Positions 2,737 through 9,168 of a stretch of 64,000 nucleotides of DNA are shown piece by piece (positions within the stretch are counted from its first letter, which is position 1; every line of letters starts with the position of its first letter). Location of the stretch: contig NZ_FQXQ01000003.1 in NCBI RefSeq assembly GCF_900130035.1, positions 1 through 64,000 on the forward strand, given 5' to 3'. Source of the DNA: Wenyingzhuangia marina. Its GTDB lineage: Bacteria > Bacteroidota > Bacteroidia > Flavobacteriales > Flavobacteriaceae. The position numbers and the translations under genes were made by a program. The notes under the pieces were generated by a model. The model was not told where the DNA came from. It worked only from the letters and a program-made list of their open reading frames with translations, and searched no databases.

Positions 2737-2811
2737 AGTACAAAGTAAAAGTATAAAGTACAAAACAGCGTAGCTATGGTACTTAATACTCAATACTCAG
2801 TACTCAGTACT
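2737..2811 (+). repeat. Periodic inverted repeat, hisG-hisD spacer
   Basis: The left arm (2737-2761) and right arm (2779-2811) are imperfect inverted repeats built from about 7-base units, AGTAC then units close to WNAGTAY. The right arm holds five units with regular spacing; the left arm is one unit shorter. The loop contains AGCGTAGCT. It fills nearly the whole spacer and belongs with the tracts at 6441, 7120/7503 and 8259. Confidence 0.75.
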
Positions 2812-4106: not shown

Positions 4107-4173
4107 TTTATAGTTGATGGTTTTTAGTTATTAGTACTAACAGCCAACAACTAACAACCAACAACCAACAACT
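4105..4173 (+). repeat. Periodic inverted repeat, hisD-hisC spacer
   Basis: Same architecture as the other his spacers but another sequence. The left arm (4105-4138) has heptads close to AGTTNNT. The right arm (4139-4173) is five consecutive heptads of the type AACARCY, the complement of RGYTGTT. The last unit abuts the hisC ATG. The stop codon of hisD overlaps the first left unit. Confidence 0.7.
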
Positions 4174-5220
4174 ATGATGAAATTTAATTTAAAAAATATA
4201 ATCAGAGAAAATGTAGCCAATATGAAGGCTTACTCTTCAGCAAGAGATGAGTTTCAGGGAGCTACTGATGATATGGTGTTTTTGGATGCGAATGAAAATC
4301 CATTTGAGAATGGAGTGAATCGTTATCCTGATCCGATGCAGAAAACTGTAAAATCGGAATTGGCAAAAATTAAAGGAGTTGCTCAAGAAAATATTTTGTT
4401 AGGAAATGGTTCTGATGAAGTAATAGACTTGATTTTACGTGCTTTTTGTGAGCCTAAACAAGACAATATCATCACTTTGCCACCTTCTTACGGAATGTAT
4501 GATGTGTCGGCAAATTTGAATAATATCACAATTAAAGAAGTTCCTTTAAAAGAAAATTTTCAACCGAATGTGTCTAAAATATTAGAAACAGTTGATGAAA
4601 ATACAAAGGTGATTTTCTTATGTTCTCCAAATAACCCATCTGGGAATTTGTTTGACTATGCCAATGTAAAAGCTATTGTAGAAGGTTTTAATGGATTAGT
4701 AGTAGTAGATGAAGCATATATCGATTTTGCCTCTGAGCCAAGTTGGGTAACTAGATTATCAAAACATCCGAATTTAATTGTAAGTCAAACCATGTCTAAA
4801 GCTTATGGTATGGCGGGAATTCGTTTGGGAGTTTGCTATGCATCTAAAGAAATTATTTCGGTACTAAATAAAATAAAACCTCCTTATAACATCAACGAAT
4901 TAACACAACAAAAAGCTTTAGAGCGTTTGCTAGCCTATGAAGATGTACAAGAGGAGATTGAAGCTGTTTTGGTAGAACGTGATAATTTAGAAATTGCATT
5001 AAAAGAGGTTTCTTTTGTAGAAAAAATTTATCCAAGCGATGCTAATTTTTTATTGGTAAAAGTAGATGATGCAACCAAGCGATACAATCAATTGATAGAA
5101 AAAGGAATTGTAGTTAGAAATAGAACTACACAGTTATTGTGTGAAAATACTTTGCGCTTTACAGTCGGAACAATTAAGGAGAACATTGCTTTGATGAAAG
5201 CTTTGAAGGAGTTAGAGTAA
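4174..5220 (+). CDS. hisC: Histidinol-phosphate aminotransferase
   Basis: This PLP-dependent class II aminotransferase converts imidazole-acetol phosphate plus glutamate to histidinol phosphate. Length 348 residues. The PLP lysine lies in SQTMSKAYGMAGIRLG; the substrate and cofactor regions DANENPF, LGNGSDEVIDL, CSPNNPSGN and VVDEAYIDF are present. Two adjacent ATGs (4174 and 4177) are possible starts; the first abuts the upstream repeat. Fourth gene of the his transcription unit counting hisL. Confidence 0.97.
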   Translation: MMKFNLKNIIRENVANMKAYSSARDEFQGATDDMVFLDANENPFENGVNRYPDPMQKTVKSELAKIKGVAQENILLGNGSDEVIDLILRAFCEPKQDNIITLPPSYGMYDVSANLNNITIKEVPLKENFQPNVSKILETVDENTKVIFLCSPNNPSGNLFDYANVKAIVEGFNGLVVVDEAYIDFASEPSWVTRLSKHPNLIVSQTMSKAYGMAGIRLGVCYASKEIISVLNKIKPPYNINELTQQKALERLLAYEDVQEEIEAVLVERDNLEIALKEVSFVEKIYPSDANFLLVKVDDATKRYNQLIEKGIVVRNRTTQLLCENTLRFTVGTIKENIALMKALKELE

Positions 5221-6440: not shown

Positions 6441-6523
6441 AGTACAAAGTACTGAGTAAAGAGTATTAAGTTTTAGCGGTACTGCTGTATTAACTTTGTA
6501 CTTTGTACTATGTACTCAATACT
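6441..6523 (+). repeat. Periodic inverted repeat, hisB-hisH spacer
   Basis: This is the clearest member. Two 32-base arms (6441-6472 and 6492-6523) each split as 5+7+7+7+6, with the core AGTA (or its complement TACT) at the same phase in every unit. The loop is 19 bases and contains AGCGGTACTGCT. The arms pair at the core of each unit and differ at the variable bases. Confidence 0.8.
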
Positions 6524-6530
6524 AAAATAT

Positions 6531-7112
6531 ATGAAAATAGTAATTATAAACTACGGAGCTGGAAATATACAATCTATCCGATTTGCTATAGAGCGATTAG
6601 GATATGAGGCTGTTTTGAGTAATGATGTTGAAGAAATAAAGAGTGCTGATAAAGTAATTTTTCCAGGAGTGGGAGAAGCTAGTTCAGCAATGAAAATGTT
6701 AAAAGCTACAGGATTAGATACTGTAATTCCGATCTTAACACAGCCTGTTTTGGGTATTTGTTTAGGAATGCAGTTGATGTGTAAATATTCTGAAGAAGGA
6801 GATACAACAGGATTAGGAATTTTTGATGTTGATGTAAAACGTTTTGAAAACATTGTAAAAGTACCTCAAATAGGATGGAACCAAATTAAAGGTTTGGGTT
6901 CTAAGATTTTTAATGATGTAAAAGAAGGAGCTTATATGTATTTGGTACATAGTTATTATGCTCCATTAACAAAAGAAACCATTGCTACGACAGAATACGG
7001 AGTGCAATATTCTACAGCTTTGCAAAAAGCTAATTTTTACGGAGTGCAATTCCACCCAGAAAAAAGTAGTACAGACGGAGCAAAGATTTTAGAGAATTTC
7101 CTCAATCTTTAG
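6531..7112 (+). CDS. hisH: Imidazole glycerol phosphate synthase, glutamine amidotransferase subunit
   Basis: HisH hydrolyses glutamine and channels ammonia to HisF for IGP and AICAR formation. Class I glutamine amidotransferase signatures: INYGAGNIQS at the N-terminus, the nucleophile elbow GICLGMQLM, and the His-Glu pair in QFHPEKSS. I place the start at ATG 6531 (MKIVIINYG, 193 residues). An in-frame ATG at 6510 lies inside the repeat arm and adds residues not expected in the family. The stop codon sits in a perfect 9-bp palindrome with a TT loop (7100-7119). Confidence 0.96.
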   Translation: MKIVIINYGAGNIQSIRFAIERLGYEAVLSNDVEEIKSADKVIFPGVGEASSAMKMLKATGLDTVIPILTQPVLGICLGMQLMCKYSEEGDTTGLGIFDVDVKRFENIVKVPQIGWNQIKGLGSKIFNDVKEGAYMYLVHSYYAPLTKETIATTEYGVQYSTALQKANFYGVQFHPEKSSTDGAKILENFLNL

Positions 7113-7119
7113 ATTGAGG

Positions 7120-7151
7120 GTACAGAGTAGTTAGTACAAAGTAATGAGTTT
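7120..7151 (+). repeat. Left arm of the repeat enclosing the four-helix-bundle gene
   Basis: Thirty-two bases in heptad phase with AGTA cores (AGAGTAG, TTAGTAC, AAAGTAA, TGAGTTT), ending at the base before the ATG at 7152. Its inverted partner is 7503-7534. Confidence 0.75.
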
Positions 7152-7502
7152 ATGAATAAGTATCAGGATTTAAAAATATGGGAAAAGTCAATGGAATTGG
7201 TTGAGAAAACCTATTTATTGATGAAACTATTACCTGATGAAGAAAAGTTTGGACTGGTTAGTCAAATTAAAAGATGTAGTGTTTCTATTCCTTCAAATAT
7301 TGCAGAAGGAGCTGGAAGAAATTCAAATAATGAGTTTAAACATTTTTTAAGTATCGCAAATGGTTCTACTACAGAATTAGAAACACAAATATTATTAACG
7401 GTTAGATTACATCTAGTTGATAAAAATGAAATTCAAGAAATATTAAATTTATGTACTGAAATAAAGAAGATGAATTATGCTCTTCAAAAAAGTTTAAGTT
7501 AA
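7152..7502 (+). CDS. Four helix bundle protein (TIGR02436 / S23 family) inserted in the his operon
   Basis: The 116-residue protein matches the family first seen as ORFs in 23S rRNA intervening sequences (S23 / bIVS type): N-terminal YQDLKIWEKSMELVEKTY, the hallmark SIPSNIAEGAGR, then NEFKHFLSIANGSTTELETQ. It is all-helical and cytoplasmic. Relatives include the Avd accessory protein of diversity-generating retroelements; the role of free-standing copies is unknown. It has no place in histidine synthesis, yet lies between hisH and hisA in the same direction. The reading frame occupies exactly the loop between two inverted heptad arms, 7120-7151 and 7503-7534. No rRNA is nearby. Family call is firm; function is not. 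Confidence 0.9.
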   Translation: MNKYQDLKIWEKSMELVEKTYLLMKLLPDEEKFGLVSQIKRCSVSIPSNIAEGAGRNSNNEFKHFLSIANGSTTELETQILLTVRLHLVDKNEIQEILNLCTEIKKMNYALQKSLS

Positions 7503-7534
7503 AACTTACTACTTTGTACTCAGTACTTAATACT
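7503..7534 (+). repeat. Right arm of the repeat enclosing the four-helix-bundle gene
   Basis: Thirty-two bases starting directly after the TAA stop, complementary in heptad phase to 7120-7151. Its reverse complement reads AGTAT, TAAGTAC, TGAGTAC, AAAGTAG, TAAGTT, the same 5+7+7+7+6 layout as at 6441-6523. Confidence 0.75.
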
Positions 7535-7541
7535 ATTATAA

Positions 7542-8270
7542 ATGAGAATAATACCAGCCATAGACATTATAGACGGACAATGTGTACGTTTGTCAAAAGG
7601 AGATTATAACACAAAAAAAGTTTACAACGAAAATCCATTAGAAATTGCTAAGCAGTTTGAAGCACATGGAATAGAACATTTACATTTGGTAGATTTAGAC
7701 GGTGCAAAAGCAAGTCATATTGTAAACCACAAAGTATTAGAAGAAATAGCAACCAAAACTTCTTTAAAAATTGATTTTGGTGGTGGGTTAAAAACAGATG
7801 AAGATTTAAAAATAGCTTTTGAATCTGGAGCTACTCAAATTACAGGAGGAAGTATTGCTGTTAAAAATGCGGATGTTTTTAAAGGTTGGATTGCTAAGTT
7901 TGGTGCAGATAAAATTATTTTAGGAGCAGATGCAAATAATGAAAAAATTGCAGTTAGCGGATGGTTAGAAGAATCTGATGAAGATTTGATTCCTTTTATT
8001 CAAGGATATCAAAAAGAAGGAATTCAATATGTAATTTGTACAGACATTGCTAAAGATGGAATGTTACAAGGACCATCATTTGACTTGTATGAAAAAATAT
8101 TAAAAGATTGTCCTAACGTAAAGTTAATTGCAAGTGGAGGAATTTCTACTTTTGATGAATTACCTCGTTTAAAAGATTTAGGGTGTGAAGGAACCATTGT
8201 TGGAAAAGCGATTTATGAAAATAGAATTAGCTTAAAACAATTGGAGAATTTTATTATTAGTACAAAGTAA
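7542..8270 (+). CDS. hisA: ProFAR isomerase (HisA)
   Basis: HisA is the TIM-barrel isomerase that opens the ribose ring of ProFAR to give PRFAR. The 242 residues show the half-barrel phosphate motifs [13 protein letters not shown] / [10 protein letters not shown] and [18 protein letters not shown] / [12 protein letters not shown] / [12 protein letters not shown], and the catalytic aspartates in [18 protein letters not shown] and TDIAKDG. Unusually, the last three codons (STK) and the stop are supplied by the spacer repeat that begins at 8259, so the C-terminus has been shaped by that element. Confidence 0.97.
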
Positions 8271-8330
8271 AAAGTACTGAGTACAAAGTTTTGTACGCTA
8301 CTTAATACTCTGTACTTAGTACTTAATACT
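8259..8330 (+). repeat. Periodic inverted repeat overlapping the hisA 3' end
   Basis: The left arm (8259-8290, 5+7+7+7+6 bases) begins 12 bases inside hisA and supplies its stop codon. A 9-base loop follows, then the right arm (8300-8330). The units carry AGTA cores like those at 6441 and 7120/7503. Confidence 0.8.
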
Positions 8331-8337
8331 AAGAAAG

Positions 8338-9094: not shown

Positions 9095-9168
9095 AAGTTT
9101 TTAATGTTGAAAGTTTAAAAGTTTGTAAAGTAACTTTTTCACTTTTTACTTTAAGACTTTATAAACTT
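9095..9168 (+). repeat. Periodic inverted repeat, hisF-hisI spacer
   Basis: Two arms of about 36 bases (9095-9131, 9133-9168) are imperfect inverted repeats with almost no loop. Each has five AAAGT-like cores spaced 7-9 bases apart. The sequence differs from the AGTAC group but the five-unit design is the same. Confidence 0.65.

Follow-up and report, generated by a model that had tools for sequence, protein, structure and literature searches.

In REP/RAYT (TnpA-REP) systems, a partner gene is framed by the repeat, and the repeats accompany their partner across genomes. In 23S rRNA intervening sequences, as described in sections of PMC4990558, S23p/IVP open reading frames lie within a stem-loop with complementary borders and a patchy distribution, and the same sections report that a Xanthomonas relative of the encoded proteins forms a homopentamer of four-helix bundles and has no known function. 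Seven-base units are known in other settings: TAACTGA heptamer repeats occur in Beggiatoaceae, cyanobacteria and Bacteroidetes (MacGregor, PMC4679880), heptad stems are described for the Nostoc trnL intron in portions of PMC4476775, and earlier work cited in excerpts of PMC4692102 suggested slippage of seven-base size from the footprint of the polymerase. A retroelement study, in the sections available of PMC10053308, reports that PF05635 resembles Avd. The text of PMC4679880 names no such partner gene (0 instances of four helix, S23, intervening or 23S rRNA), and no paper joining PF05635 with heptamer repeats was found in the open-access literature, subscription papers and preprints lying outside the scope of the search. 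Two puzzles meet at the locus described here, namely a widespread protein family, PF05635, with structures but no known function, and intergenic repeats of seven bases for which no cause is known; were the protein the partner of the repeat, both would become testable together.

The first-pass annotation of the window (the whole 64-kb stretch of DNA that was analysed) had reported a TIGR02436-type gene bounded, as in a hairpin, by heptad arms. This observation was confirmed, the open reading frame, its profile matches and both arms all being present in the his operon:

7120..7151, + strand: upstream heptad arm of AGTANNN units, from the repeat search
7152..7502, + strand: PF05635 / TIGR02436 four-helix-bundle gene of 116 amino acids between hisH and hisA, from the open reading frame and profile matches
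7503..7534, + strand: downstream heptad arm of TACTNNN units, from the repeat search and arm pairing

The protein scored 134.3 bits against PF05635 in the Pfam profile search (cut-off 33.8) and 124.8 bits against TIGR02436 (cut-off 24); relatives of the family have been solved (2gsc and 2rld). Pfam gave no transposase, nuclease or other catalytic domain in it, the matches being PF05635 and a sub-threshold bAvd. The gene and its arms take up almost the whole space between the hisH stop codon at 7112 and the hisA ATG at 7542, and both neighbours are codirectional with it. The arms are inverted AGTANNN heptads as had been claimed, but imperfect ones: positions 7120-7151 and 7503-7534 agree at 8/32 positions end to end and at 24/31 after a one-base shift, with a best core of 26 nt (7126-7151 with 7502-7527) at 85%, and the inverted flanks of the gene yielded p = 0.003 against shuffled sequence (locus L002). 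Likewise, the arms abut the ATG and the stop codon of this gene to within one base, but abutment with no spare base is not a general property, since median distances across 64 significant Flavobacteriales loci were 13.5 nt from arm to ATG and 8.5 nt from stop to arm.

Other gaps of the same operon carry heptad sequence with no gene in it:

2739..2811, + strand: heptad arrays between hisG and hisD, the right one TACTNNN with five units, the left one AGTA-like by eye
4110..4175, + strand: gene-free heptad hairpin in the hisD-hisC gap, different in sequence (AACAACC type)
6441..6523, + strand: gene-free heptad hairpin in the hisB-hisH gap, its arms pairing at 23/32
8254..8335, + strand: gene-free heptad hairpin in the hisA-hisF gap
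about 9111..9168, + strand: weaker periodic hairpin between hisF and hisI, with identity 0.43 at lag 7 and 0.50 at lag 8

Lag 8 was thus no weaker than lag 7 in the last of these. The 64-kb window contains seven AGTA/TACT heptad arrays, all of them in gaps of the his operon, against a mean of 0.0 in 20 single-base shuffles of the window. In the hisA-hisF gap of another species, G004 (L034:1003-1440, minus strand), a different open reading frame of 145 amino acids, without a Pfam match, has heptad sequence on both sides and, judging by this position, would be other cargo in a heptad loop.

For the PF05635 family at large, the upstream flank of each gene was aligned with the reverse complement of its downstream flank and the score compared with those of dinucleotide shuffles. 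In a first set of 120 unique genes (kept of 130 called) from Flavobacteriaceae and relatives in the order, 64 had inverted flanks at p<0.01, as against 17 of 160 neighbouring open reading frames (tested of 250) and 6/120 swapped flank pairs, in line with the prediction that flanks would be inverted more often here than at other genes. Within 60-nt flanks of the 64 significant genes, identity at lag 7 was 0.45 to 0.48, whereas the remaining lags between 3 and 13 gave about 0.27 to 0.33; lag 14 was raised too. The sequence of the unit varied from locus to locus while the period stayed constant; AGTA is therefore no rule for the family. A second set, obtained from GTDB by a scan with one short conserved peptide and consisting of the best 80 of at least 590 candidates ranked by likeness to the window protein, provided 84 scored genes, of which 59 were inverted at p<0.01 and 70 had a period-7 run in a flank. 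Such a run was present at 24 of 28 genes from 30 non-Bacteroidota loci (20 genomes), 17 of these 28 already being among the 84 GTDB genes, and at 9 of the 11 that were new. Lower-scoring copies of two non-Bacteroidota genomes displayed it in 10/19 cases, which counts against the unit of gene and arms proposed below. On contigs classed as viral by IMG/VR (L354-L377; 19 genes from 24 loci, some near-identical), period-7 runs were found at 17 genes and inverted flanks at 15. An Rfam search of 20 non-Bacteroidota stretches returned one tRNA and no rRNA, indicating that these are not 23S intervening sequences.

All full-domain genes of unique DNA, taken with 100-nt flanks, were pooled into a set of 258, including 126 from Flavobacteriales. 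The family is named for rRNA intervening sequences, and most of these sampled copies (194/258) adjoin a heptad run in at least one flank, 114 of them in both; the corresponding numbers at control lags 5, 8, 10 and 11 were 5, 35, 5 and 7. Inverted flanks at p<0.01 were seen in 156/258. By group, period-7 runs occurred at 89/126 Flavobacteriales, 69/83 GTDB, 19/30 further non-Bacteroidota and 17/19 viral genes, the counts not being independent as loci share ancestry. Record titles, in which some MAG labels may be wrong, place the run-bearing loci in Bacteroidota, Clostridia, Peregrinibacteria, Kerfeldbacteria, Gemmatimonadetes, Ignavibacteriae and proteobacterial MAGs. Heptad arms or runs thus flank most sampled PF05635 members, in many bacterial groups; the 64/258 genes that lack a run at the threshold used count against regarding gene and arms as a unit. 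A unit consensus, nTnAGww, was clear in the Flavobacteriales and GTDB sets, which are rich in Bacteroidota, but was not significant in other phyla and viral contigs (information 1.267 vs a null of 1.179, sd 0.053), so that only the period is general. A shared arm sequence acting as recognition site was rejected on the same ground, nTnAGww not being clear in non-Bacteroidota and viral genes. TAACTGA, taken as its reverse complement, is a loose fit to this consensus (top 3.9% of heptamers). A strand asymmetry was also apparent over 123 loci, upstream arms being C-poor (7%) and downstream arms G-poor (6%).

GIY-YIG genes, a small family in the same genomes, served as a family control. None of 30 had period-7 flanks, and 19/30 had inverted ones (L294-L323, Flavobacteriaceae); the generic inverted-repeat test therefore lacks specificity, and the informative feature is the period. 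By eye, the arms at 14 of these 30 GIY-YIG loci fall into three recurrent REP-like types, CCTGAACTTGTTTCAGG, GAGCGCAGTCGA and CCTGCnnnGCAGG, and gene and arms there possibly constitute a RAYT-like pair. The 40.8 kb of PF05635 gene flanks contained 46 strict period-7 runs. In those parts of the loci that lie farther than 400 nt from every PF05635 match, 255 kb in all, 23 distinct runs were found, and 800 kb taken at random from 20 genomes held 7, a single genome contributing 4 of them. In 288 kb around these genes, counting only sequence over 265 nt away from PF05635 matches, there were 18 distinct period-7 hairpins, as against 0 to 2 hairpins at other lags; the density near PF05635 loci is roughly 35-fold that of random stretches, of which 1.2 Mb from 20 genomes held 2 hairpins, one of them A-rich and doubtful. 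Earlier hairpin detectors were too strict or too loose, the looser one giving no clear lag-7 excess over lags 5, 8, 10 and 11 in random stretches; the better detector, with these 2 hairpins in 1.2 Mb, led us to reject a genome-wide dispersal of hairpins. The idea of one conserved, dispersed palindrome, as in REP/RAYT, fails together with it, what is constant being mainly the period.

The his operon was further used as a fixed place at which to compare genomes. The hisA region of 69 genera was searched for period-7 runs after masking PF05635 genes with 170 nt on each side. These 69 genomes came from 107 in which HisA was matched; the first 29 were taken in search order and the other 40 picked for low or high copy number, this second batch having been picked and fetched after the first 29 had been seen. 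Five of the 22 zero-copy genomes were assigned by subtraction from a copy list in which five genomes went unnamed, and in another of the 22, G077, a weak profile hit caused part of the sequence to be masked. Runs were present in 17/33 genomes with five or more copies of the gene, 6/14 with one to four and 1/22 with none (Fisher test on the extremes 0.0003, kinship ignored). Strict runs followed the same course (10/33 vs 0/22), control lags of 4, 5, 8, 10, 11 and 13 gave 0-4 among the 22 and 1-6 among the 33, and the second batch alone gave 8/20 vs 1/17 (p 0.02). Heptad runs away from the gene therefore accompany its presence in the genome, with such exceptions among many-copy genomes as G068 and G128 (13 copies each) and G054 and G083 (12 each), whose his regions carry no run.

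The 3.24-Mb genome containing the window, placed near Wenyingzhuangia by a protein matching W. gilva at 97%, has four PF05635 copies, the three besides the his copy each lying between codirectional genes, which we read as the hem, thi and moa operons, and the arms differ among all four. Across seven species of the genus, the his copy was present in four, and the three gene-free his gaps keep periodic hairpins, by eye of AGTA type in one species and different in sequence in the other two. The hem copy was found in 7/7 species, one copy being interrupted by a stop; arms of the six intact copies sort by score into three types of two species each, with own-arm scores of 28-39 and scores across types of 12-23, and both arms have thus changed together at this site. 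At the thi site, compared in the 6/7 species with ThiE, own-arm scores (30, 20, 19 and 20) were not above cross scores (15-29), and at the his and moa sites the comparison is uninformative, all arms being of one type. The thi gap of G002 is, by eye, clean and without arms or hairpin, whereas that of G001 retains an apparent gene tail and the right arm, like the remnant of a deletion. Empty sites of the kind anticipated in the first-pass annotation were accordingly found, in the three his gaps and in the thi gap of G002; the accompanying proposal of a cassette that enters pre-existing hairpin loops gained no support, as one thi gap has no hairpin and the other resembles a deletion remnant. At the thi site of G000 (L260, L003), the upstream arm is contained in the 3' end of the adjoining thiD-like reading frame, and the PF05635 gene runs at its end into the downstream arm. 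Four species share one relative at the moa site, two (G003 and G005) have a divergent one, with in-frame stops in G005, and one has none; in the moa gaps of G003 and G005 (L269, L273) this divergent four-helix-bundle gene occupies the place that in relatives holds the usual PF05635 copy, in the manner of a cassette swap.

Wherever dS was computable, dN/dS of the PF05635 gene was below 0.4, and the gene is under purifying selection. Its dS departed in both directions from that of the downstream gene (0.13 vs 0.49 for hisA between G000 and G002, 0.15 vs 0.53 at moa, and 1.09 vs 0.52 for hemE between G000 and G002), which points to exchange between species. The tract of high identity at his between G000 and G002 runs from about 6992 to 7642, past the arms into hisH and hisA, and thus indicates ordinary homologous recombination and not clean transposition or a unit with defined ends. 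A target-site duplication was looked for by eye in the his, thi and moa gaps, where the arms are too variable to fix the junction. Finally, in 13 of 20 pairs of related genes at unrelated places (at least 70% identity, no shared neighbours found), near flanks were similar on at least one side; similarity here means exceeding the 95th percentile of 400 random pairs, a threshold at which about 10% would be expected. Arm sequence thus tends to be held in common by related genes even where their places are unrelated; these pairs, some of which share members or lie on short contigs, support, without proving, that gene and arms may travel together.

We lean, with some reserve, toward a reading in which the PF05635 gene makes up a single unit with its two heptad arms, and in which the encoded protein acts as partner to the seven-base intergenic repeats of bacteria. 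The gene and the repeat go together in the inverted flanks (64/120), in the his runs (17/33 vs 1/22) and in the flanks of related genes (13/20 pairs), and it is in this partnership that the first interpretation of the locus held, while its REP-like conserved palindrome was given up and its entry into existing hairpin loops found no support. That the period is constant while the sequence varies freely suggests a process working in seven-base steps. The biochemical step could take the following form. The protein, a solved relative of which is pentameric, would bind a folded heptad arm as single-stranded DNA or as nascent RNA, and, once bound, would let the host polymerase re-copy the 7-base unit; one arm might be copied onto the other by slippage plus template switching. 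Copying of this kind would extend the arrays and keep them inverted whatever their sequence, and might now and then start new arrays in neighbouring gaps of an operon. Homologous recombination would be the main route by which the gene spreads, with occasional movement in company with its arms, and the 23S rRNA intervening sequences with the same gene would be its rRNA-resident form. Against this reading, we know of no enzymatic activity, established or predicted, for a PF05635 protein.

An unlikely alternative is that the cassette is an intervening sequence of mRNA, in which the arms would pair once transcribed and RNase III would cleave the resulting stem, freeing the PF05635 message from the operon mRNA as in 23S rRNA, selection on the RNA stem keeping the arms complementary. 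Parts of PMC4990558 describe the rRNA elements as having complementary borders, replacing helix loops and being cut by RNase III; consistent with such a stem, the stretch 7113-7541 folds as RNA with z=-3.45, and both hem arms change together. Of 533 arm mismatches, however, 83 were G.T/T.G and 117 A.C/C.A (p 0.02 for A.C over G.T; 199 vs 138, p 0.001, in a looser alignment), and this lack of a G.U excess is evidence against selection on a sense RNA stem, for which reason RNA pairing as the selected trait was rejected. The A.C surplus, which is G.U on the other strand, is unexplained and also counts against the partner reading preferred above. Both neighbours were on the same strand in 197 of the 226 pooled genes (out of 258) with both neighbours within 400 nt, as an operon message would have it, but control triples were nearly as often so (84/107, p 0.05) and 13/226 genes had both neighbours antisense; operon orientation, only marginally above the control triples, was rejected as a signal. 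The fixed 7-base period and the gene-free hairpins would, moreover, be left unexplained.

It is similarly improbable, in our judgement, that the gene is a passenger, with polymerase slippage making the arrays without any protein and the gene merely surviving in roomy, hairpin-rich operon gaps. Gene-free heptad hairpins exist, and sections of PMC4692102 report that heptameric repeats are over-represented in many bacteria and propose slippage set by the polymerase footprint. Room may also play a part: the his loci of genomes without the gene tend to have less noncoding sequence (median 139.5 vs 164 bases, p 0.07), and the contrast in runs, which is 13/26 vs 1/17 (p 0.003) where a locus has 100 noncoding bases or more and 12/22 vs 1/9 (p 0.04) where it has 150 or more, fades to 9/12 vs 1/4 (p 0.12, not significant) at 200 or more, so that compact spacing may account for part of the his association. 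A mere passenger is nonetheless at odds with the near absence of his runs where the gene is lacking, in the whole sample as at 100 noncoding bases or more, with the 0/30 period-7 flanks of GIY-YIG genes, and with arm sequences that track the relatedness of the genes across unrelated places. REP/RAYT-like transposition, whereby the protein would recognise the arm ends and move the cassette into existing hairpins, has in its favour a partner gene framed by its own repeat, the fixed-place his association and the divergent relative in the moa gaps of G003 and G005, but appears very unlikely given a protein with no transposase domain by Pfam, arms whose sequence is not conserved between copies, a hairpin-free empty site and a deletion remnant at thi, and a his recombination tract exceeding the arms.

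Returning to the protein as partner of the repeat, a bolder version of this reading is that PF05635 proteins are bacteria-wide, largely sequence-independent builders of heptad repeats, small pentamers that cause a polymerase to copy a 7-base unit over again on a folded strand, create and maintain inverted operon arrays with their own gene in the loop, and thereby explain the so far unaccounted-for excess of 7-base repeats in the genomes of bacteria. We put this forward tentatively and consider it possible but on the whole doubtful. If true, a class of repeats defined by unit length more than by sequence would join the known mobile-repeat systems.

Set beside known systems, the locus differs from an insertion sequence or MITE in that the four copies of the genome have no conserved terminal repeats. 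It recalls the Avd of diversity-generating retroelements through a distant sequence relation, the window protein scoring 27.1 bits against bAvd in Pfam and 24.2 against Avd (equivalog cut-off 80), both below cut-off; unlike such retroelements, the genome has no match to RVT_1, the family searched, and on that search a reverse-transcriptase partner was rejected. With the TAACTGA repeats (PMC4679880) and, from the portions available of PMC4476775, the Nostoc trnL stems it shares seven-base units that are intergenic or stem-forming, the TAACTGA repeats differing in being direct arrays. The 23S rRNA intervening sequences, as far as the sections of PMC4990558 describe them, have the same protein family, an open reading frame in a stem-loop, complementary arms and a patchy distribution. 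Unlike them, the window gene lies in the hisH-hisA gap between protein genes and not inside an rRNA gene, its arms are heptad arrays (the period having been compared only outside rRNA), and there are several copies per genome. As in REP/RAYT, a partner gene is framed by the repeat and repeats accompany it, here at his in 17/33 vs 1/22 genomes and more weakly at long spacing. Unlike REP/RAYT, the partner is a four-helix bundle where that of RAYT is a tyrosine transposase, and in place of a high-copy dispersed palindrome of common sequence, the arrays, few in random stretches, have in common their period more than their sequence.
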